Source: Taurinivorans muris (lineage in GTDB: Bacteria > Desulfobacterota > Desulfovibrionia > Desulfovibrionales > Desulfovibrionaceae). From it: a stretch of DNA of 64,000 bases. The number at the start of each line of letters is the position of its first letter. The first letter of the stretch is position 1. Under the pieces are notes generated by a model. It was not told the DNA's origin, did not search any database, and saw only the letters and a program-made list of their open reading frames with translations. The DNA lies in NCBI RefSeq assembly GCF_025232395.1, contig NZ_CP065938.1, positions 868,001-932,000 on the forward strand, written 5' to 3'. Made by a program: the position numbers and the translations under genes. Shown here in pieces: positions 43,494 through 54,982 of the stretch.

Positions 43494-44255
43494 ATGGATT
43501 TAGCCACTCTAATAGGTATTGTAGCAGGATTCGGGCTTGTAGGCGCAACCATCGCCATGGGTCCGGACCCCGGCGGATTTATTGATATTCCTAGTGTTCT
43601 CATCGTTCTTGGGGGTACTTTCGCAGCTACGCTTATCTGTTTCCCGTTTGAAGAATTTTTGCAGGCGTTCAAAGCCGCAAGCAAAACATTCACAAGCAAA
43701 AGAACTATGCCCGAAGAAGTTGTCGACGTTATGGTGCAAATCGCTGAAATCAGCCGCCGTGAAGGGATATTGGCTCTCGAACGCGTTGAAACGAACAATC
43801 CGCTTCTCAAAAAAGCCATGCAGCTCATCGCCGACAACGCCGACCCTGAACTTATCCACAGCACCGTGGTCATCGAGATTTCCTCCATGCAGAAACGGCA
43901 TGGCATCAATATCGGCGTATTCAATAAAATGGCTGCCCTCGCTCCCGCCATGGGAATGTTGGGTACGCTTATCGGTCTTATCCAAATGCTCAGCCAATTA
44001 AGCGACCCGTCAGCCCTCGGTCCCGCTATGGCTGTTGCTTTGATCACAACATTGTACGGTACCATTTTAGCAAACTTCATTTTTTCACCCCTCGCCACCA
44101 AACTGAAATCAAGAAGCACACAGGAAAGCATGAACCTATCCATTATTTTCGAAGGTGCAAAATCCATTCTTGAAAACAACAACCCCCGTTTGGTATACGA
44201 AAAATTATCATCATTCCTTGCTCCTTCTGTAAGAAAGCATGAAGAAGACAAGTAA
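43494..44255 (+). CDS. motA: Flagellar motor stator protein MotA/PomA
   Basis: 253 residues, four transmembrane helices (about 5-25, 33-50, 148-168, 180-200). The short N-terminus MDLATLIGIVAGFG and FIDIPSVLIVLGGTFAAT are more like the PomA/MotP (sodium) branch than E. coli MotA. The cytoplasmic loop has the charged residues that face FliG (SRREGILALERVE), and helix 3 carries LAPAMGMLGTLIGLIQML. With MotB it forms the ion channel of the flagellar stator. The motA-motB gap is 17 bases. Confidence 0.92.
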   Translation: MDLATLIGIVAGFGLVGATIAMGPDPGGFIDIPSVLIVLGGTFAATLICFPFEEFLQAFKAASKTFTSKRTMPEEVVDVMVQIAEISRREGILALERVETNNPLLKKAMQLIADNADPELIHSTVVIEISSMQKRHGINIGVFNKMAALAPAMGMLGTLIGLIQMLSQLSDPSALGPAMAVALITTLYGTILANFIFSPLATKLKSRSTQESMNLSIIFEGAKSILENNNPRLVYEKLSSFLAPSVRKHEEDK

Positions 44256-44272
44256 GATCAAGAGAATAACGT

Positions 44273-45013
44273 ATGAGCAACATTCCTGAACCAGAACCGG
44301 AAGAACCTGAAGACACCTCGTGGCTTGCGACCTACGGGGACATGGTTACCCTACTGCTTGTATTCTTCGTACTGCTTGTATCCATGTCAACTGTCGAAGT
44401 AAAACGTTTCCAAAGCGTTTTCGGGTCTATGCGCATGGCTTTCGGAGGGCTTACCGCAAGTGAAATCGCAGGCGGGCAAATGCAGGCGAACATCAATAAC
44501 CAATCCCAGCAATCAGTCCAAGATCTGATGCGTATCCGCCAAGAATTGCTCAAAAACCAGGAAAACGTTTTCAACGCGATTCAAAGCTATTTATCCAAAA
44601 AAAATGTTGAAGGCGAAGTCGGAGCCGTTCTTGACGAGGGAACAATCACCCTAACCATCGGCGACAGCCTTCTTTTCGCCCCCGGTTCCGAAGAACTCAG
44701 CCCGGAAGCGGACGAACAACTGAAAACGGTTCTCGATGTCATCGAATCCAACCGGGAAATGACTGTCAACATCAAAGGATACACGGACGACAGCGCCATT
44801 CCGGAAGGCGCCAGATTTAAAAACAACTGGGAATTATCGGCACTGCGGGCTGTTAATGTCTTGCGTTGGCTTGTGGAACATGGTATAGACCCTTTAAGAG
44901 TTACTGCAACAGGCATGGGAGATTTAAACCCCCGTTTTCCGAACGATTCACCAGAAAATCGCGCAAAAAACCGCCGAGTTGAATTTTGCCTTGAAAGACA
45001 AGTCTTAAAATAG
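44273..45013 (+). CDS. motB: Flagellar motor stator protein MotB
   Basis: 246 residues. The single transmembrane helix holds the ion-binding Asp in TYGDMVTLLLVFFVLLVSM (near residue 24). The plug and linker (65-105) are followed by an OmpA-like peptidoglycan-binding domain (INIKGYTDD-type segment TVNIKGYTDDSAIPEG; ELSALRAVNVLRWLVEHGID; NRRVEFCLER). It anchors the stator to the cell wall. An acidic N-terminus, EPEPEEPED, is unusual but present in other deltaproteobacterial MotB. Confidence 0.93.
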   Translation: MSNIPEPEPEEPEDTSWLATYGDMVTLLLVFFVLLVSMSTVEVKRFQSVFGSMRMAFGGLTASEIAGGQMQANINNQSQQSVQDLMRIRQELLKNQENVFNAIQSYLSKKNVEGEVGAVLDEGTITLTIGDSLLFAPGSEELSPEADEQLKTVLDVIESNREMTVNIKGYTDDSAIPEGARFKNNWELSALRAVNVLRWLVEHGIDPLRVTATGMGDLNPRFPNDSPENRAKNRRVEFCLERQVLK

Positions 45014-45032
45014 CAAACCGCGAGAACATGAT

Positions 45033-46457
45033 ATGGCTAAAAAAGGCTTTTCAATAAAATATGAGCAAACAACAGATATGCCATTAAAAATCTCGCCCAA
45101 GAATACTTGGGTCAAGATCAATACTTTTGACACCCCTTGCCGGCTTCTTGAAATCTCCACACAAAGTTTAAATATTGAAATAAAAAATTTGCCCGAAGCT
45201 TCAACAATGCAGGCGGGAAATAATATCAAAATACAAGTATTGAACGCTTCCGGCGAAGATCCCCTGGTACTCCATGTGACTATTTTTCATATCAATGATA
45301 CGGAATGCCTTTGCCAAGTCCCGCTCTATGTTGACAGTGAACAAATCCTTTTGGATAAAATCGTTCTTGAAATCCAAAAAAATGAAATCGGCGACAAACA
45401 TTTTTCCAGCTTTGCACGCAATAATGACAATTCGGACAATGCAGCGGAACAAAATTACAATGTCGCGACATCAGATGAAGACATAGCCTCCATCCTCAAC
45501 AACCTTGTCGCCATGCTTCCCAATGAAACAAAAGACAGCGAAGAGGAAAAAGTTGTTGCGCACTCCATAAACAATATCCCGAAATCTTCTTTCACGTATC
45601 AGCAACAGCCTAATTTCGCAAGGCTTTTTGAAACCGCAGACGATGACGATTACAATATTGACAAAGAAAAAACAGAGCATGACTCCGACAAAGAAGAAAA
45701 TCTCGAAGACGGAACGTTGCAAGCCGAAATTCCCAGTGTCAACCCATTAACGCTTTTGCGGTATTCCATTGTCAATAAGTTTTTGCTTGACGGTTTGAAA
45801 GATCCCTATCCGAATGAAACAAAAAAACTGGAAGAACACAATATAGATATTTCCGATGCCAATAAAACCGAAGCAGTAAAAGATGTGGCCAAAAATTTAA
45901 AAATGCCGCAAAAAACGCATAAAAAGAAAAAAGCGCAGCATAAACCCGCCAATGACATTTCCAATTTCCTGCCGACCAATCTTATTACGGAAATGAACAC
46001 CCCCGGATTTATGGCAAGTATCGAACGCACAAATGAATACGATTACAACCTCACCAACAATAAAAAAAGAGAGGTCGACAAAGATGCCGCCTTTGACGAA
46101 TATTACGAGTTTTCTTCAGAATTGCCCCCGGAACTCATTTTTGCGCTTATGGAAGACGCCAGAAAGAAAAAAGAAGAATATGAAGGCTTGGACTCAAAAT
46201 ATCAAACGGATGAATTCAGTTTCACCATGGTTGACGAAGACGATTATGAAGGTGACGAAAACGAAGATTCCGTTTTGGGAAAATTTGACAAACTCCTTGA
46301 AAACAAAAGAAACATTCAGTTTAACGTGAATAATGACCCGGATTATATTGCAATGACCGATGAGGAAAAAGACGAAGCCTTTATTGAAAAACTGAACAAT
46401 CAAAACCAAGACCAAAACGGCGAAGAAAAAACGTTCAATTTCAAACTCGATATTTAA
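45033..46457 (+). CDS. Acidic protein with PilZ-like N-terminal domain, function unknown
   Basis: 474 residues. Residues ~15-130 look like a beta-barrel of PilZ type (WVKINTFDTPCRLLEISTQSLNIEIKN in place of the D/NxSxxG region), but the RxxxR c-di-GMP motif is not visible, so binding is doubtful. The rest is mostly low-complexity and very acidic, with stretches such as YEGDENEDSVLG, and is probably disordered. Position directly after motB (19 bases) and 1 base before hypF suggests one transcript; PilZ proteins often modulate motility, so a stator-linked role is an inference. It could equally be a lineage-specific protein. Confidence 0.5.
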   Translation: MAKKGFSIKYEQTTDMPLKISPKNTWVKINTFDTPCRLLEISTQSLNIEIKNLPEASTMQAGNNIKIQVLNASGEDPLVLHVTIFHINDTECLCQVPLYVDSEQILLDKIVLEIQKNEIGDKHFSSFARNNDNSDNAAEQNYNVATSDEDIASILNNLVAMLPNETKDSEEEKVVAHSINNIPKSSFTYQQQPNFARLFETADDDDYNIDKEKTEHDSDKEENLEDGTLQAEIPSVNPLTLLRYSIVNKFLLDGLKDPYPNETKKLEEHNIDISDANKTEAVKDVAKNLKMPQKTHKKKKAQHKPANDISNFLPTNLITEMNTPGFMASIERTNEYDYNLTNNKKREVDKDAAFDEYYEFSSELPPELIFALMEDARKKKEEYEGLDSKYQTDEFSFTMVDEDDYEGDENEDSVLGKFDKLLENKRNIQFNVNNDPDYIAMTDEEKDEAFIEKLNNQNQDQNGEEKTFNFKLDI

Positions 46458-46458
46458 T

Positions 46459-48948
46459 ATGCAAAAACGCGAGCAACATATTATAAAAGGACAAGTCCAA
46501 GGTGTCGGATTTCGTCCTTTTATTTTCAGGCTTGCCCTGGCAAATTCTTTAACCGGCTTTGTGCAAAACACCGCGAAAGGCGTTTTAATTGAAATACAGG
46601 GAACAAAGGAACAAATTAACCGATTCAACCTTGATTTCAAACAAAAACTCCCTCCCCTCGCCAAAATTTCCGAACACCAAAAGCAAGAAATCGATCCCCG
46701 TGCTTTAGAAAAACAGTTTGAAATCATCCATTCGGAGCAAAGCGGTCATAAAGGGCACAGCGTCCTTGTCAGCCCTGATGTCGCAATATGCGCGGACTGC
46801 AAAAACGATATGTTCACCAAAACAAACCGCCGTCATGCTTATGCCTTTACAAATTGCACGTCTTGCGGACCAAGATATACCATAACAAAATCAATCCCAT
46901 ACGACAGACCGGTAACCACCATGGGCTGTTTTCCCCTCTGTGAAGCCTGCCATATCGAATACACCGATCCGCTTGACCGGCGTTTTCACGCCCAGCCCAA
47001 CGCCTGCGCAGACTGCGGTCCGCATTTATGGCTGAGTGACGGAGAAAAAAATACAAGCCAAAATCCTCCCTATCTTCCTCAAGAGCAAAATATTCTTGCT
47101 GAAAACAAACAAGCGCTTCTCCAAACAATTTCTTATCTCAATCAAGGAAAAATCATAGCCGTAAAAGGTTTGGGCGGTTTCCAGCTCGCTTGCGATGCCT
47201 TTAACGGCAATGCCGTTGAAGAACTCAGAAAACGAAAAAACAGACCGCATAAAGCTTTCGCCCTCATGGTCAAAGACCTTGAAAGCGCAAAAGAAATCGC
47301 CCATATCAATTCCAAAGCGGAAGAACTTCTCACTTCGCCTTCCGCCCCCATTGTGCTTTGCCCTGCCAAAAATTCCGGCTTACCCGAAAACATCGCCCCC
47401 GATACGCACAGAATAGGCATCATGCTCGCCTATACCCCTTTGCATTTATTGCTTTTCAGCCCTCAGACCTTAGAGGAAAACACAAAACGGCAAGCTCCGA
47501 AAGCCTTGATTATGACTTCCGCCAATCAAGGCGGCAAACCTATCTGCATAAAAAACCGGCAAGCTCTTCGGGATTTACGCGAAATTGCCGATTATTACCT
47601 TTTCCATGACAGGGATATTCTTATCCGTGTCGACGATTCCGTTTGCCTCGCCCTTAATGCGGAAGATACTGAACAAGAAACCTTGCCGAACCCAATATTT
47701 TTCAGGCGTGCACGAGGCTATGTGCCAAGCCCCGTGCGTTTTCCGGACAACGCAAATTACCTTTCCTCTGTTTTTGCAGCCGGAACATTGTTAAAAAACA
47801 CCTTCACGTTCACCAAAGGAAACGAAGCCTATCAAAGTCAGCATATCGGCGATTTAGACAACTTGGAAGTTCTCGATTTTTTTGAAGAAACAGCAAAACA
47901 CCTGCAAAAACTTTTAGAGGTCGAACCGCAAAAAACCGCAACTGACCTGCACCCGGATTTTCCAAGCACCCATCTTGCGGAAGTTTTCAGCCAAACACAC
48001 AACATAGGATTGGAAAAAGTCCAGCACCATATTTCCCATGCCTATTCTGTTCTTGCCGAACAAAACAAACTTTCGGAACACCCTTATTTCGCCTTGATTT
48101 TAGACGGAACGGGCTTAGGCTATGATAAGACGGTTTGGGGCGGAGAAATTTTTTATCTTTTCGCCCGTGAAAAACGCCATTACCGCTTGGCAAGCCTCAG
48201 TCCCATTGCCTTAATCGGCGCAGATAAAGCAAATTTTGAGCCATGGCGCATTGCTTTCGCCTATCACAAAAAAGCCCAAGAAAAAGGCTACTTGGCTGAA
48301 AACGATATTTTTCCCTTTTATGACAAGCCGGAATATCAAAGCCAACTCAACCAATGCGAACTTATGCTTGAAAAAAATATCAACTGCCCCCTGAGCAGCG
48401 GATGCGGACGCCTTTTTGACGCAATTTCCGCTCTCCTTGAAATTTGCACCCAAACAAGTTATGAAGGGCAGGCGGCTATCAAACTTGAAGAATACGCTTT
48501 TTCCGGCAAAACAGATACGTTTATAAAAATCCCTCTGCACTGCGACCAAGAAAATAAAAAACTCATTTTGCAGGAAATGCAAGAAAAAAAGCCTGCAAGC
48601 AGTTATCAGCCCTATATTGAAATTGATACGGTCTATCTTTATGCGGAACTCTTCAAACTTCTGCAAAAAAATACAAAACGTGCCGATATCGCCCAAATTT
48701 TCCATACAAGCCTTACCCATGCTTTAAACGAATGTCTGACTCTGCTGAAAAAAGAATTTTACTTGGCGAATCCCAATTCCTGCAAACTCATTTTCAGCGG
48801 GGGCGTATTCAATAATGAAATTCTGCTCCGTTCCCTTTACCGCAAACTTTCTCCAGAGTTTCAAATTCTCTTTCCGCAAAACACACCTCCCGGCGATGCC
48901 TGCATAAGCCTCGGTCAAGCCTTCTACACAGCATTGCAGAGAACATAA
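46459..48948 (+). CDS. hypF: Carbamoyltransferase HypF
   Basis: 829 residues. Order: acylphosphatase domain (residues ~1-95; QGVGFRPFIFRLA), two zinc-finger motifs (CADC ... CTSC and CEAC ... CADC, ~110-190), YrdC-like domain (~200-390; KPICIKNR), and Kae1-like domain with metal-binding HHISHAYSVL and a C-terminal FSGGVFNN. It makes carbamoyl-AMP from carbamoyl phosphate and passes the carbamoyl group to HypE for the CN ligands of NiFe-hydrogenase. No other hyp or hydrogenase gene is nearby; the position after motAB is odd. It ends only 12 bases before the CRISPR array, in the same direction, with no terminator between. Confidence 0.93.
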   Translation: MQKREQHIIKGQVQGVGFRPFIFRLALANSLTGFVQNTAKGVLIEIQGTKEQINRFNLDFKQKLPPLAKISEHQKQEIDPRALEKQFEIIHSEQSGHKGHSVLVSPDVAICADCKNDMFTKTNRRHAYAFTNCTSCGPRYTITKSIPYDRPVTTMGCFPLCEACHIEYTDPLDRRFHAQPNACADCGPHLWLSDGEKNTSQNPPYLPQEQNILAENKQALLQTISYLNQGKIIAVKGLGGFQLACDAFNGNAVEELRKRKNRPHKAFALMVKDLESAKEIAHINSKAEELLTSPSAPIVLCPAKNSGLPENIAPDTHRIGIMLAYTPLHLLLFSPQTLEENTKRQAPKALIMTSANQGGKPICIKNRQALRDLREIADYYLFHDRDILIRVDDSVCLALNAEDTEQETLPNPIFFRRARGYVPSPVRFPDNANYLSSVFAAGTLLKNTFTFTKGNEAYQSQHIGDLDNLEVLDFFEETAKHLQKLLEVEPQKTATDLHPDFPSTHLAEVFSQTHNIGLEKVQHHISHAYSVLAEQNKLSEHPYFALILDGTGLGYDKTVWGGEIFYLFAREKRHYRLASLSPIALIGADKANFEPWRIAFAYHKKAQEKGYLAENDIFPFYDKPEYQSQLNQCELMLEKNINCPLSSGCGRLFDAISALLEICTQTSYEGQAAIKLEEYAFSGKTDTFIKIPLHCDQENKKLILQEMQEKKPASSYQPYIEIDTVYLYAELFKLLQKNTKRADIAQIFHTSLTHALNECLTLLKKEFYLANPNSCKLIFSGGVFNNEILLRSLYRKLSPEFQILFPQNTPPGDACISLGQAFYTALQRT

Positions 48949-48960
48949 CTATACAACATA

Positions 48961-48996
48961 AAACAAATTGCCTTTCCAATTTAGACATGCTAAAAT
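48961..48996 (+). repeat. Degenerate first CRISPR repeat
   Basis: The last 29 bases (48968-48996) match the repeat exactly; the first seven (GTTATAG in the consensus) are replaced by AAACAAA. The intact part starts at the -35 box and ends at the -10 box of the repeat-borne promoter. Degeneration normally marks the oldest end of an array. Confidence 0.9.
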
Positions 48997-50513
48997 TCAG
49001 GAAAGAGCTATTTATATAGCTCATCGTTATAGTTGCCTTTCCAATTTAGACATGCTAAAATTTCACCATTAATTAAAATATCACCTGCATTGTTATAGTT
49101 GCCTTTCCAATTTAGACATGCTAAAATCTAATACTGATTAATGCCATGTTTCAATCCGTTATAGTTGCCTTTCCAATTTAGACATGCTAAAATTTTTTGC
49201 GGTTAAAACGTCTATGGCTTTGGGTTATAGTTGCCTTTCCAATTTAGACATGCTAAAATCCGAACACATGAGGCATTTTCTTCTCGGTGGTTATAGTTGC
49301 CTTTCCAATTTAGACATGCTAAAATGGTGGGCATGGGTGTAACATCATTCCACGGGTTATAGTTGCCTTTCCAATTTAGACATGCTAAAATCTGTGACAA
49401 TTACACTAGAGGATGTGTAACGTTATAGTTGCCTTTCCAATTTAGACATGCTAAAATGCGGGTTATTGGCAACATTATTCAGGTTGCGTTATAGTTGCCT
49501 TTCCAATTTAGACATGCTAAAATCCGTAAGGATATACGCTTGGGCATGAGCATGTTATAGTTGCCTTTCCAATTTAGACATGCTAAAATCAATTACCGTT
49601 ATCAGCTTGGTTTTCAGCGGTTATAGTTGCCTTTCCAATTTAGACATGCTAAAATCTGCCAATTAAAATATTGGTCGCTCTGATAGTTATAGTTGCCTTT
49701 CCAATTTAGACATGCTAAAATAAAAACGCAAAGCTTTGAAAAAGCAGATGAGTTATAGTTGCCTTTCCAATTTAGACATGCTAAAATTTGCGGGAAATGA
49801 AGAAGACTGCTCCGTACGTTATAGTTGCCTTTCCAATTTAGACATGCTAAAATCGTCAACAGCCGCATCAAGGGCTTCCCTGTGTTATAGTTGCCTTTCC
49901 AATTTAGACATGCTAAAATTACTCCTCCAATCAATCCACCAACTACACCGTTATAGTTGCCTTTCCAATTTAGACATGCTAAAATCCCGCCTGCATGATA
50001 ATATACGCCTTTCATGTTATAGTTGCCTTTCCAATTTAGACATGCTAAAATAACTTTTGAGCGCATAAATTCTGCACCAAGGTTATAGTTGCCTTTCCAA
50101 TTTAGACATGCTAAAATAGCAGGCTTTGAAAATGCAAACCCTACTATGTTATAGTTGCCTTTCCAATTTAGACATGCTAAAATAGGCTTGTGTGTTTTTG
50201 AAAAGCCTGTGCAGTTATAGTTGCCTTTCCAATTTAGACATGCTAAAATTGGATGTTCAGCATTATTTGCATAATACTCGTTATAGTTGCCTTTCCAATT
50301 TAGACATGCTAAAATCTGGCATGTTGACATGTTGCGTGGAATATTGTTATAGTTGCCTTTCCAATTTAGACATGCTAAAATATGTACATGTTCCTACGTG
50401 TGTCAAACCGAGTTATAGTTGCCTTTCCAATTTAGACATGCTAAAATATCAAAAATACTTTCAATAAAGTTATTCATGTTATAGTTGCCTTTCCAATTTA
50501 GACATGCTAAAAT
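48961..50513 (+). CRISPR. Type II-C CRISPR array, 24 repeats and 23 spacers
   Basis: Repeat of 36 bp beginning GTTATAGTTGCC and ending ACATGCTAAAAT. Perfect copies start at 49026 and recur every 66 bp to 50478 (23 copies) with 22 spacers of exactly 30 nt. A degenerate copy at 48961-48996 precedes them with a 29-nt first spacer. The form of the repeat and its pairing to the tracrRNA set the crRNA strand as plus. Inside each repeat, positions 8-13 (TTGCCT) and 28-36 (extended -10 TGCTAAAAT) make a promoter with a 17-nt spacer, so transcription should begin ~7 nt into each spacer and leave a ~24-nt guide. The array points toward the cas genes. All perfect copies appear identical. Confidence 0.98.
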
Positions 50514-50515
50514 CG

Positions 50516-50559
50516 AATAAGATAATTACTTGAATTAATAAGTAATTATCTTATTTTTT
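50516..50559 (+). terminator. Terminator of the CRISPR array
   Basis: A perfect 16-bp AT-rich stem (AATAAGATAATTACTT, 8-nt loop, its complement) followed by TTTTT on the plus strand, starting two bases after the last repeat. It would end the pre-crRNA before cas2, which reads from the other strand. It may also cover the leader/integration end. Confidence 0.7.
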
Positions 50560-50568
50560 ATTAAAAAA

Positions 50569-50874
50569 CTATAACAAAAGCAATTGAATAGCTCCTGTTT
50601 TTTCTCCTTTTTTAACAGTTCCGACTAAAATTTCCATGCTTGCATATTGTTTTTCTGTCACAGTTAAAAGGCGAATACTTCCGGTATCGGGCAAAACGGC
50701 ACGCAACCTGTTGCTATGGGTTTCCACTTCCGCCATGCCCTTGCAAACCCGTGAATATACCGACCATTGCAACATATAATATCCGTCTTGCAATAAAAAT
50801 TTTCTAAATTCAGCTGCAATTTTCTTATCTTTTTTCGTCACTGTCGGCAGATCAAAAAAAACAATTACACGCAT
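50569..50874 (-). CDS. cas2: CRISPR-associated endonuclease Cas2
   Basis: 101 residues from ATG 50874. AAAGGAG lies upstream of this codon, inside a longer frame to 50904, so the shorter start is preferred. The N-terminus MRVIVFFDLP with the first-strand Asp is typical of type II Cas2, as is YYMLQWSVYSRVC. Cas2 forms the central dimer of the Cas1-Cas2 integrase that inserts new spacers. It is last in the cas9-cas1-cas2 operon and faces the array. Confidence 0.95.
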   Translation of the reverse strand: MRVIVFFDLPTVTKKDKKIAAEFRKFLLQDGYYMLQWSVYSRVCKGMAEVETHSNRLRAVLPDTGSIRLLTVTEKQYASMEILVGTVKKGEKTGAIQLLLL

Positions 50875-50907
50875 ATAACGTTCTCCTTTTACTGCCATAT
50901 ACAAACC

Positions 50908-51795
50908 TTATTCCAAAAAATACGGCAAAACTAAAACGTTCTTTTTCAATTTTATTGATTTTGCCAGACTTTGACAGGTATATTCAATCGCTTTCAATAC
51001 AGTGACTTCCGATTCTTCTATCATTATCTGTTTAGTCAATACTCGCACCAATTGATTTTTATACTGCGTATTGATATTTTCAATGCTATTTTCCTGAAAA
51101 AGTGTATAAACGCTGAAATCCACAAAAGGACGATACGGCTCGATAATATCATCTGCTAAATTATAGGCATTAAACATATTTGCATGATGAAGTCCAAAGC
51201 AAGGCAGCAAACCAACTCCCACCAAGGAACGTGCGATGCAGGCACGAAGAATTGCATAGCCGTAATTTAAAAATACATTTCTCAAATCCTCGTCATTTTT
51301 CCGTGAAAAAGACGAAAAAAGCATTTTAAAATAATGATTCGCAGCCGCAGCCTCAATATTTCCTTTATCGCCTGAAACCACTTTTTTGCTGTAAGCAAAT
51401 AATTTTTCAACACCTTGCCTTTGCAATATTTTCAAACACAGAGCCTGATTTTGAATTTTTACCCGGACAAGTTCCTGCCACAGCCTATTTTGCAATGGCT
51501 TCCGCATTTCTATTTGCAGTTTCGCCATATGTGAACTTTGATAATAAGATAAAAAAGGAAAATACGCTCCACAAGGCATATGACTCTCATCACACGAAAA
51601 AAGGCAAATACCATGCTTTGCCAACTCTGCCAGCAATATATTATGCACGGTTATCTGCCTGTTTTCCAAAATAAGCACACTGATATCTTCCAAAGGAAAA
51701 GAAATTTCCTCTTCTTCCTGCGGAACATATAAAAGCTGTTTATTTTTAATTTTCAACGTACAGGGCTTTGTTATCTGCAATATCCGCCAAGACAT
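50908..51795 (-). CDS. cas1: CRISPR-associated endonuclease Cas1
   Basis: 295 residues, type II Cas1. The metal-binding residues are Glu in GNIEAAAANHYF, His in GLHHANMFNAYN and Asp in LADDIIEPYRPFVD. It catalyses protospacer integration at the leader-proximal repeat together with Cas2 (33 bases downstream by the ATG chosen). It starts one base after the cas9 stop, so the three genes are one operon. No cas4 or csn2 is present, which defines subtype II-C. Confidence 0.97.
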   Translation of the reverse strand: MSWRILQITKPCTLKIKNKQLLYVPQEEEEISFPLEDISVLILENRQITVHNILLAELAKHGICLFSCDESHMPCGAYFPFLSYYQSSHMAKLQIEMRKPLQNRLWQELVRVKIQNQALCLKILQRQGVEKLFAYSKKVVSGDKGNIEAAAANHYFKMLFSSFSRKNDEDLRNVFLNYGYAILRACIARSLVGVGLLPCFGLHHANMFNAYNLADDIIEPYRPFVDFSVYTLFQENSIENINTQYKNQLVRVLTKQIMIEESEVTVLKAIEYTCQSLAKSIKLKKNVLVLPYFLE

Positions 51796-51796
51796 A

Positions 51797-54796
51797 TTAA
51801 ATTCTTTTCTTAGTAGATGTTAAAAATAAACGTTTTTCTTCTTTGATTTCCACATAATCACCAAGCAAACCAACTTGATATTTAATGATTGCATCTTGTG
51901 ATTTTACTCCGATACTTCTTTGCTTCCAACATCTGTCATGAGCTTCTATTGTTATAGCTGCTGTTGACCTATCAGAGCCTTTATAATACCCAAAATAAAT
52001 TGTTTCGCCTTTCTGTACTTTTACCAAATCGTCCATGAACAATGAAAATATGAAAGTAAAACTTTCATCAACGACAATCCACTCATCTTCACCCTTACCC
52101 GCAACAATGGCTTTATTAGGCAAATTCTTACCTAAGTCGCTCTTATAAATTGGCACAAGATAAAATTCATTTTTACCTTTTTTATTTTTCTTACAAAAAA
52201 CATCTGTACGAAGCATGTCACTATTTCCTGCAATGCCCCCGCGAACATAAAAACCGGACTTCACATTTTTTGCCTCAAACTGTTTTTTCTTTTCATTCAA
52301 AGTATAAATTGTTTCCCCATGAAGTCCGCCTGTCGCCTTTTTGCGCGGCGGACGGGATACGAAAACCTTATCCAAAGCAATAAGCACATCTTCCCTGAAA
52401 TTGCCCCATGGTTTAGCCATAACATATTTTTTATGCACATGCTCCCTATGCACCAATCCCTCTTTTCGGGATATTTTTGATAATGCCTGCACCATTGACT
52501 GCGTTGCACAAGCTATCACTATCGCATCCTGTGCATGGTGCTTGTCACTTTCTGTCCGATTTTTTTCCAATCCCCATTGGTGACGCAAAAATGCCGTTAC
52601 GTTGCCGCTTCGGACTTGCACTTTGTTTTTTATATTCGTATGCAAACTTTCGCTGAAATCGATGCCGTCCTCTAAATATCGTTTCATATACAAGGCTATG
52701 TAACTGTTGTCATTAGCATTTCTTTCCCTAAATTCCAGTTCTTTTTCGTTGAATGTTTCATTCAAAAGTTTTTCTTTTTTGCTTCTATGCAAATTCACAT
52801 GACTTGACACCCGTCCGATAAATTCCATCCATTTTTCGCTCCCAGCATTATTCTTTCCGATATGCTCAAAAGGCGTCCTGTTGCCCTTCTCTTGGTTTTC
52901 AGTGGACAGAACCAAAACTTTGTTGCTGTACGAATTGTCAAAACTGCGTGAATACGGCAAAATATGATCGATTTCGACATAACCGACTTCAAATAAGCGG
53001 TTAATATCCATAGGCTTTCCGCTGTATATGCATTTACAGTCTTGTTCAAGATACAAAAGCCATTTTAATATATTTGTTCCGGTTGCTTTATAGCCTTTTT
53101 CTTCAATTTGTGTTACCGCGCTTTGATTTTTATTCCTATTTTCTTCTTGCCGTTTACTGATTTCCCTGCGTTCTTCAAAACTTTTCTTCAATTCCCTGCC
53201 TGTTTCAAGGTTGATTTGGTCAGGCGTTCCATATTTTCGAGCCAAGGCGTTATAGACCTTTCTGAATTGAGCTACCGTTCTGTTGACGACCGGCACTTTT
53301 GTCTGTTTATCTTTATCTATTACTGGAAGAAGCTTTCCTTTTTTCTCAACCAATTTTTCCGAAATTTCTTTAAAATCATACCCTGCGCTTGCACAAGCCT
53401 TATCGTATTTTTCTCCTTTTTCAAGATAAGGATTTATTTTATACAAGGCTTTCAAAGACAAATTAATAAACGTATCAAAAGTCAGCGTCAAAAACTGCGC
53501 TATTATTTCTTGTGAATAACCCAAATTTTCAAGTTTTTCTTGAATCTCTCTATCTTCTTTTTCCTCTGCAATAATTGTAACAGCCTTATCCAGTTTTTCA
53601 ATATCATCAAAAATATGAGGTAATGCCTTAAATGCCGATTGCAGCTTATGCCAGCCTTTCATGCTATAAAAAACAGCATTTTCAGGGGCTGCTTGTTTTT
53701 CCTCCCCGTTATCATCTATTTTTGATTTCGAACCATACTTTAAGCAAGCAAACTGTATATTCTTATCCTTAAATATCTTTGCAGAAATAACCTTATACTT
53801 TATTTCTTTCGTTTTTTTCAATAACTCAAATAAAAGCTGCCGTTCTTCCGCAGTTAAAAACCGCTTTTTATCATCTTCATACACAACAAGATTGTTGATT
53901 TTGCTCCATGCTACAAAAAATTCAGCAGTAGGCGCTTCTTTCGGAGCTCTTTTTTCGTCTTTTTCAAAAGTACACCTGCCAACCATATCGCCAACGCTTT
54001 TAATCCCACGCTGGCGAAAAGCAATTCTCATGAAATCATCATATAACTCCTGCGTAAAAATTCCATATTCTTTTTGCGTTGCGAAAATCATATTCAATTC
54101 TGCTAAAACCTCACTGCGAGGAATGGAATTTCTATAATCAGCTTCAACTTCTTTTTCATTTTTTCCTTTTTTTACTGATACTGTGAAATTACGCTTTTTG
54201 CCATTCACACCTGCTTTTTCAACTATAATTTGAGCTAAACTTTTACCCTCTTCTTTTAATGCCATATTCACACGGATAGCAGACAAAACCTTGCCGCTAT
54301 CCTTATCTTTTTCCTCTTGAGCTTTACGAGCCGATTTAAAACCGCGGTGCTTCGCCAAATGGTATAAAACACGGAGCAGTTCTTCCTTTGAAAGCTTTTC
54401 ATGCAAAGCTTTTACCCTTAAATCCCAAACATCGCCGCCAAACTGATTTTTGCATATTTCTTCCGTAAACTCTTCAGAATTAGCAACCAAACCCTTTGCG
54501 ACAAATAATCCACGCAAGCCTTCTTTGCGTCTTGCCTTACGCCTGCATGCCCTGCGAGCCAAACGCTTTTCACGCCTTGCAGCCGCCAGCGAACTGCCAT
54601 CTTTAGGATTTTCCGCAACCGGAAAACACCGTACCCCGCAGTCAATAATCTTTCCCTGAGCAATTTCAACGCTGCCTTTTGCTTTGTCTGCCAAAATTTC
54701 GCCAGTTTCCATATCATAATATTCATTATCAAAATCAACGACTGCCCAACCAATGGAAGCTATCCCCAAATCAAAACCAAAGACGCGTCTTCTCAT
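51797..54796 (-). CDS. cas9: CRISPR-associated endonuclease Cas9 (type II-C)
   Basis: 999 residues from ATG 54796, which has GAGGAA upstream; a TTG 39 bases earlier would add a tail not expected in the family. RuvC-I holds Asp9 (FGFDLGIASIGWAVVDF), followed by the arginine-rich bridge helix (REKRLARRACRRKARRKEG). RuvC-II has NLETGREL, the HNH domain has His611 in YVEIDHILPYSRSFDNS with the downstream Asn, and RuvC-III has KHHAQDAIVIACA. Recognition lobe and C-terminal PAM-interacting domain fill the rest. It cuts DNA guided by crRNA:tracrRNA. The PAM cannot be read from this window. All nuclease residues are intact, so the locus looks functional. Confidence 0.98.
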   Translation of the reverse strand: MRRRVFGFDLGIASIGWAVVDFDNEYYDMETGEILADKAKGSVEIAQGKIIDCGVRCFPVAENPKDGSSLAAARREKRLARRACRRKARRKEGLRGLFVAKGLVANSEEFTEEICKNQFGGDVWDLRVKALHEKLSKEELLRVLYHLAKHRGFKSARKAQEEKDKDSGKVLSAIRVNMALKEEGKSLAQIIVEKAGVNGKKRNFTVSVKKGKNEKEVEADYRNSIPRSEVLAELNMIFATQKEYGIFTQELYDDFMRIAFRQRGIKSVGDMVGRCTFEKDEKRAPKEAPTAEFFVAWSKINNLVVYEDDKKRFLTAEERQLLFELLKKTKEIKYKVISAKIFKDKNIQFACLKYGSKSKIDDNGEEKQAAPENAVFYSMKGWHKLQSAFKALPHIFDDIEKLDKAVTIIAEEKEDREIQEKLENLGYSQEIIAQFLTLTFDTFINLSLKALYKINPYLEKGEKYDKACASAGYDFKEISEKLVEKKGKLLPVIDKDKQTKVPVVNRTVAQFRKVYNALARKYGTPDQINLETGRELKKSFEERREISKRQEENRNKNQSAVTQIEEKGYKATGTNILKWLLYLEQDCKCIYSGKPMDINRLFEVGYVEIDHILPYSRSFDNSYSNKVLVLSTENQEKGNRTPFEHIGKNNAGSEKWMEFIGRVSSHVNLHRSKKEKLLNETFNEKELEFRERNANDNSYIALYMKRYLEDGIDFSESLHTNIKNKVQVRSGNVTAFLRHQWGLEKNRTESDKHHAQDAIVIACATQSMVQALSKISRKEGLVHREHVHKKYVMAKPWGNFREDVLIALDKVFVSRPPRKKATGGLHGETIYTLNEKKKQFEAKNVKSGFYVRGGIAGNSDMLRTDVFCKKNKKGKNEFYLVPIYKSDLGKNLPNKAIVAGKGEDEWIVVDESFTFIFSLFMDDLVKVQKGETIYFGYYKGSDRSTAAITIEAHDRCWKQRSIGVKSQDAIIKYQVGLLGDYVEIKEEKRLFLTSTKKRI

Positions 54797-54819: not shown

Positions 54820-54846
54820 TTGACTTTTTATACAATATTCTATAAA
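54820..54846 (+). promoter_or_regulatory. tracrRNA promoter
   Basis: TTGACT, 15-nt spacer, TATAAA (a TAAAAA at 17 nt is the alternative -10). Predicted start ~54853, ~19 bases before the anti-repeat. Confidence 0.5.
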
Positions 54847-54855
54847 AAATAACAA
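54827..54855 (-). promoter_or_regulatory. cas9-cas1-cas2 promoter
   Basis: On the minus strand TTGTTA, 17-nt spacer, TATAAA. Predicted start ~25 bases before the cas9 ATG. It overlaps the divergent tracrRNA promoter. Confidence 0.6.
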
Positions 54856-54982
54856 GGAATTCTTATTTATTATGTCTAAATTGGAAAGGTAACTATAATA
54901 ATCGAGAAATTCCGAGTAAGGCTCTAACGATTTCAATTTCGTTATCCGAAAAGCAACTGTTTTTACAGTTGCTTCTTTTTTT
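54853..54982 (+). ncRNA. tracrRNA
   Basis: Bases 54872-54899 are the reverse complement of the first 28 nt of the CRISPR repeat except at two C-to-T changes, both of which leave G-U pairs with the crRNA. Downstream are a small GAG-TAAGG-CTC fold, a TAACGA/TCGTTA hairpin (54925-54944), and a terminal hairpin AAGCAACTGT-TTTT-ACAGTTGCTT (54951-54974) followed by a T run to 54982. This is the standard order for tracrRNA: anti-repeat, nexus-like stem, terminator. The 5' end depends on the promoter call. It diverges from cas9, so repeat:anti-repeat duplex, Cas9 and RNase III would mature the crRNA. Confidence 0.9.

Follow-up and report, generated by a model that had tools for sequence, protein, structure and literature searches.

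The 64,000-nt stretch of the Taurinivorans muris chromosome analysed here (the window) contains a CRISPR array beside cas genes, which raises the question whether this array is transcribed as a single precursor or whether every repeat carries a promoter for the spacer behind it. We consider it highly probable that each repeat of the window carries a sigma-70 extended -10 element (TGCTAAAAT), probably helped by an upstream TTGCCT, and that transcription of the following spacer would start from it. The array, its promoter-like elements, their strand, the tracrRNA gene and a hairpin behind the last repeat can be read directly from the nucleotides (Table 1), and so can the conservation described below.

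Table 1. Features of the CRISPR locus in positions of the window
Feature	Position	Strand	Remarks
hypF	46459..48948	+	ends 12 bp before the first repeat, same strand
Type II-C CRISPR array	48961..50513	+	24 repeats of 36 nt, 23 spacers
First repeat	48961..48996	+	-35 (48968-48973), TG (48988-48989) and -10 (48991-48996) all intact
Spacer 1	48997..49025	+	29 nt, perfect 7-bp hairpin
Second repeat, typical copy	49026..49061	+	-35 TTGCCT (49033-49038), gap 17, TG (49053-49054), -10 TAAAAT (49056-49061); layout common to the other 22 intact copies
Last repeat	50478..50513	+	adjoins cas2
18-bp inverted repeat, then T tract	50515..50562	+	directly after the last repeat, before the convergent cas2
cas2	50569..50904	-	TIGR01573
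cas1, type II	50908..51795	-	TIGR03639
cas9	51797..54796	-	TIGR01865, 683.9 bits
tracrRNA	54860..54982	+	anti-repeat, then hairpins and T-tract terminator; ends set by eye

Twenty-three of the 24 repeats are identical; the odd one is the first, which reads AAACAAA at nt 1-7, differs from the others at six positions (nt 1-5 and 7) and is unchanged from nt 8 on. A sequence-only reading of this stretch had described spacers of 30 nt at a period of 66 nt, which fits 22 of the 23 spacers, but the first spacer has 29 nt and the period is once 65. Between array and tracrRNA we found cas2, cas1 and cas9 as three large tandem ORFs, without csn2 or cas4, and the other ORFs of at least 90 aa in this interval overlap cas9. 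The cas9 start (ATG at 54796) was picked by eye, and the frame would also permit a start at a TTG (54835). The five best matches of this Cas9 among PDB sequences are Cas9 chains of 1055-1095 aa, some of which we take to be of Nme or Geo type. The anti-repeat of the tracrRNA (54872-54899) pairs with nt 1-28 of the repeat, and a gene for RNase III is present in the genome. Judged by the strand of the tracrRNA and its anti-repeat, the array lies antisense to the cas genes and convergent with them, and the tracrRNA strand makes the plus strand the transcribed strand of the array. This is the layout of an ordinary type II-C locus. By eye, overlapping divergent promoter-like sites can also be seen at 54820-54860, one for the tracrRNA (plus strand, TTGACT...TATAAA) and one for cas9 (minus strand, TTGTTA-17-TATAAA).

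All 24 repeats contain TTGCCT at nt 8-13, a gap of 17 nt, TG at nt 28-29 and TAAAAT at nt 31-36, exactly where the sequence-only reading had placed them in the 36-bp repeat, and these elements occupy the tracrRNA-pairing strand. Among 50,000 dinucleotide shuffles of the repeat, searched on either strand, 0.27% hold an equally good site with TG, and 4.4% hold such a site when TG is not required. A promoter scan of 48500-50700 returned 40 sites compared to 8.0 (sd 2.5) in shuffles. The repeat's own site accounts for 24 of them and has 9 of 12 matches plus TG, while seven sites stand above it by match count (10-11 of 12), which we read as accidental sites using spacer bases. Searching the 2.17-Mb genome for TTG-N17-TGNTANAAT gave 50 matches, of which this array holds 24, a second array of the genome 14 and the anti-repeat of that second system one, leaving 11 elsewhere. 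With the wrong spacing (N20) 13 matches were found, so the motif is not in excess outside the arrays; read backwards, the pattern gave 3 matches (N17) and 1 match (N20). The plain pattern TTG-17-TATAAT occurs 38 times in the genome compared to 23 times when read backwards, a modest sign that the host uses promoters of this kind. At the predicted +1 (spacer nt 7) purines were not preferred: they make up 47.7% in the 264 30-nt spacers of 19 arrays (z -0.45). The largest deviation of the 30 spacer positions was observed at nt 28, where purines are rare in the 19 Desulfovibrionales arrays (38% of 264, z -3.5).

For comparison with related bacteria we searched three overlapping genome samples for type II cas1 loci, namely 199 genomes from the family with 20 matches over the cut-off, 297 from the order with 24 and 395 from the phylum with 6, and took in 12 of 17 matches on plasmids. 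A -10 box of the TA type stands at the repeat end in 17 of 18 distinct Desulfovibrionales repeats, which is the honest count since our comparison table of 17 repeats omits the exception, L070 (GTTTTGTCC...CTCAAAC, no TA at nt 31-32). For this comparison the 37-nt consensus of L048 was cut to 36 nt, and the repeat of L024, which is the same as that of L047, was counted once. All 17 tabulated repeats have T31 and A32, 14 have T36 and 11 have TG at nt 28-29, while nt 33 and 35 are variable; the conservation of T31, A32 and T36 is the sequence signature of the -12, -11 and -7 positions of a sigma-70 promoter. Weak boxes with 3 of 6 matches were observed in L055, L071, L072 and L074, so the promoters surely differ in strength across the set. 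We also compared ten other II-C-like repeats, of which seven come from plasmids, two from the phylum sample and one from an Algoriphagus genome; eight of them show TA at nt 31-32 and a final T, and the two without them belong to Bacteroidota. The II-A repeat of L091, a locus with csn2, has no TA at nt 31-32; L090, which lies beside III-A genes, has TA at this place in one of its two possible orientations, with a final C. To orient the family arrays we initially applied a rule favouring a GTT start and TA at nt 31-32 (L041 was oriented by hand); in 14 of 19 arrays the result is backed by a same-strand anti-repeat lying 4.3-4.95 kb past the array, some of these being short matches. Of the arrays without such backing (L037, L041, L045, L049 and L072) all but L049 run antisense to cas1, as judged by eye. 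The array finder showed no array in the wide loci L042, L044, L046, L052, L053, L056, L073, L077, L079 and L080 or in the plasmid loci L082, L087 and L088.

Pairing with the tracrRNA was considered as the cause of the repeat-end conservation across this set and rejected: recognised anti-repeat pairing covers nt 2-28 in L039, nt 1-13 in L047 and L050 and nt 2-17 in L051, stopping short of nt 31 in each, and all four keep TA at nt 31-32. The tracrRNA of the window could also pair with nt 31-34 past a 2-nt mismatch, so that at this locus pairing may contribute to the conservation. A different cause would be integration by Cas1-Cas2, for which the repeat end might be conserved as part of a terminal inverted repeat (GTT...AAT), its likeness to a promoter being incidental. 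Most tabulated repeats indeed start with GTT, several end with AAT or AAC, and nt 5 and nt 32 are complementary in 13 of 17. However, such complementarity is seen in 8 of 17 for the pair nt 6 and nt 31 and in only 3 of 17 for the outermost pair, nt 1 and nt 36, despite an invariant G1, so a terminal palindrome is no explanation for T36; a -10 box instead fits the spaced TG and the variable positions. We regard conservation for integration as very improbable and keep to a -10 element at the repeat end as the probable reading.

The -35 box was analysed in the same repeats. TTG at nt 8 or 9 was found in all 17 tabulated Desulfovibrionales repeats, with a gap of 16 or 17 to the -10. Among the other -10-bearing II-C-like repeats two of eight have TTG at nt 9-11, and so do L036 and L092, two II-C-like repeats of Bacteroidota that lack a 3' -10. 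Moreover, TTGCCT falls inside the duplex with the tracrRNA. These observations favour a variant of our explanation, compatible with its other parts, in which the repeat has an extended -10 only and TTGCCT belongs to the crRNA handle, serving in tracrRNA pairing and in recognition by Cas9. The promoters of C. jejuni, described as having no clear -35 box (PMC3656092), point in the same direction, while the window differs from them by a possible -35. Against this variant stands that TTG keeps its distance to the -10 in all 17 repeats although its offset takes two values, and that it survives in most mutated first repeats, which need not act as a handle.

Mutations of the first repeat occur in 14 of 19 family arrays, in seven of these within nt 1-7 only, while 283 internal repeats show 12 changes in total. 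Among the 14 mutated first repeats, nt 28-36 are intact in 12, TTG in 12 and the gap (nt 14-27) in nine. As the first repeat is no spacer's handle, its retention is in keeping with a function as promoter of spacer 1, which is also suggested in PMC12080349. We did not accept the degenerate first repeats as proving selection for the promoter, however, because the promoter-neutral gap is likewise intact in nine of 14 and truncation from the outer end explains the pattern about equally well; for the same reason the survival of TTG is a weak point. In the window, the predicted duplex with the tracrRNA amounts to -32.9 kcal/mol for the first repeat compared to -43.3 kcal/mol for an intact one, and this weakened duplex fits the idea in PMC12080349 that a useless crRNA is silenced. 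Weighing these points, we give the variant with an extended -10 only a substantial chance, yet one short of even, and slightly favour a real -35 role of TTGCCT. The claim of a complete -35/extended -10 promoter is strongly supported for its -10 half, given the T31, A32 and T36 counts above, whereas the -35 half is plausible but confounded by TTG in Bacteroidota repeats that have no -10 and by its place in the tracrRNA-pairing half.

The two arrays in one genome provide built-in replicates. The second II-C-like system (L004 8774-14478) matches the cas9, cas2 and cas1 models, has cas9 and cas2 on one strand and cas1 on the other, and possesses its own array of 14 repeats. The repeat of this array, GTTTTACTTGCCTGTCTGATTTAATCCTGCTAAAAT, has diverged from that of the window, and the two are identical at 14 of 14 promoter-element positions compared to 14 of 22 others (Fisher one-sided p 0.011, the positions not being independent). 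The tracrRNA of the second system pairs with nearly the entire repeat, so pairing may explain part of the identity of the elements.

The anti-repeat of the second system (L004 8692-8720; G000:C1:1516691-1516719, plus strand) also keeps TTGCCT-17-TGCTAAAAT, on the cas9-sense strand and 53 bp before the cas9 ATG, and the same is found in contig L044 of the same species. This copy may be the cas9 promoter; the need to pair with the crRNA is a confounder for its being kept. In L043 the -10 of this copy differs in its last base, and decay has gone further in the copy belonging to the window's own system. One could speculate that the II-C repeat of Desulfovibrionaceae is handle, integration site and full two-box promoter in one, with the -35 in the tracrRNA-pairing half and the -10 in the tail, and that the anti-repeat, a relic of this repeat in inverted orientation ~25-80 bp ahead of cas9, can retain this promoter directed towards cas9. 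We consider this combination rather unlikely; if it were true, transcription of crRNA and of cas9 would share one promoter sequence.

We next turn to the surroundings of the array, which bear on the single-precursor alternative. Here the array would mainly be transcribed as one long precursor by read-through from a run of four same-strand ORFs ending in hypF, tracrRNA and RNase III would cut the crRNAs, and the -10-like repeat end would be little used. The three ORFs ahead of hypF (43494-46457, the first two resembling MotA and MotB) run in the direction of the array like hypF itself, and a leader promoter upstream of the array was rejected since the 12 bp behind hypF leave little room for one. 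A terminator scan of 48500-50700, which demands 3 G-C pairs and misses A/T-rich hairpins, found none, and the 70 nt before the array show no unusual fold (z 0.4). In 15 of 17 arrays with upstream sequence the nearest upstream ORF (at least 120 aa, some short ones being perhaps spurious) is co-directional, and with this as the rule read-through is possible. At L041 3048-3054 (minus strand) the TAG stop of the upstream hypF-like ORF even forms nt 5-7 of the first repeat, so that the start of the array overlaps the end of the gene. The pairing of repeat nt 1-28 with the tracrRNA and the presence of an RNase III gene would suit such a precursor as well. However, read-through leaves unexplained the invariance of T31-A32 and the common T36, even where the tracrRNA was not seen pairing, and mapped II-C systems use internal starts (PMC3656092). 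We therefore judge a read-through precursor improbable as the main product and go on with one promoter per repeat.

At the downstream end, the A/T-rich hairpin after the last repeat came from folding and not from the terminator scan. It has -17.3 kcal/mol (z -6.5), none of 200 shuffles was as stable, and its sequence makes it a likely terminator for array transcripts. Among 20 arrays, with L039 (array end over-extended) and L070 omitted, 11 have a fold at z -4 or lower on their downstream side, compared to 0 of 19 on the upstream side, although a T tract does not accompany every fold.

From base sequence and layout we infer the transcription starts, the form of the crRNAs, their processing and their termination as follows. 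The array would hold the guides of a type II-C CRISPR-Cas9 system in which RNA polymerase would start at each repeat, with the first transcribed nucleotide about 5-8 nt inside the spacer behind it. Every such transcript would then carry a ~24-nt guide with a primary 5' end and no 5' cut, and the 5' half of the next repeat would be its handle. The tracrRNA would pair with this handle, and RNase III would trim the 3' end. Longer transcripts over several units are probably made too, and read-through from hypF perhaps adds precursors, while the hairpin after the last repeat would stop the transcripts of 24 tandem promoters short of cas2. Independent promoters would keep old spacers expressed whatever the length of the array. 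By precedent, the first ('extra') repeat and spacer 1 would be the oldest of the array, and the last repeat would be the end where new spacers enter (for the direction of acquisition in II-C arrays see PMC12080349). The hairpin of spacer 1 has -9.2 kcal/mol, a stability that none of 100 shuffles reached, and the crRNA of this spacer may therefore fold on itself. Comparing the whole array to phages and plasmids gave no match, nor did pieces of spacers 6, 22 and 23 (3 of the 23 spacers) match viral contigs exactly; as no spacer targets were found, no PAM was derived. The array of a sister genome of the same species (UBA8003; L035 and L040, on one contig) shares none of its seven readable spacers with the 23 of the window, and its Cas9 is 95% identical.

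For the type II-C system of Neisseria meningitidis, Zhang et al. 2013 reportedly described a ~24-nt guide; its repeat sequence differs from that of the window. This species was the precedent first named for the array, and PMC5006608 and PMC7038990 do cite it for a functional promoter in each repeat. The window shares the promoter-type repeat with it; an RNase III gene is present in the window's genome, whereas RNase III is cited as dispensable in N. meningitidis (PMC5006608). As a precedent it is not the only one: starts have been mapped in C. jejuni (PMC3656092), and the 3'-terminal -10 box has been described as a II-C trait (PMC4607530). In this last work Pearson et al. 2015 surveyed 132 type II repeats and gave as II-C traits a 3'-terminal -10 box, a convergent array and a degenerate proximal repeat, with a few II-C repeats having a predicted -10 elsewhere. 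The window agrees with this class in its 3' sigma-70 -10 (gnTAnaaT), its antisense convergent array and its degenerate proximal repeat; the passages of the survey that describe the -10 do not mention a -35 at a fixed distance, whereas the window has a possible one. The II-C system of Clostridium cellulolyticum H10 resembles the window in its extended -10 within the last nine nt of the repeat and in an array opposite to the cas genes, and its crRNAs hold 23-26 nt of spacer, internal starts not being separated from processing in the account of PMC7038990. An own promoter in each II-C repeat is also stated in PMC12080349, and in Riemerella II-C no promoters were found in the repeats, according to the part of PMC5006608 that treats them. 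Titles and abstracts found by searching the open-licence literature included none that dealt with II-C repeats of Desulfovibrio or with a fixed -35 element of such repeats, and the accessible parts of PMC3936727, PMC7708072, PMC10281378 and PMC13431127 add little further.

Taken together, the base sequences make the promoter interpretation of the window repeats very likely right, yet this is the expected behaviour of type II-C arrays. It extends a known mechanism, one promoter per repeat, to another bacterial family and leaves the current understanding of type II-C systems unchanged. Among the known systems, C. jejuni II-C is like the window in its minimal cas9-cas1-cas2 set, in the extended -10 at the repeat end (GGTAAAAT compared to TGCTAAAAT here), in a tracrRNA with anti-repeat and in RNase III (PMC3656092). 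Its starts were mapped at spacer nt 5 by Dugar et al. 2013 using dRNA-seq and primer extension (PMC3656092), whereas the promoters of the window are predicted from sequence.
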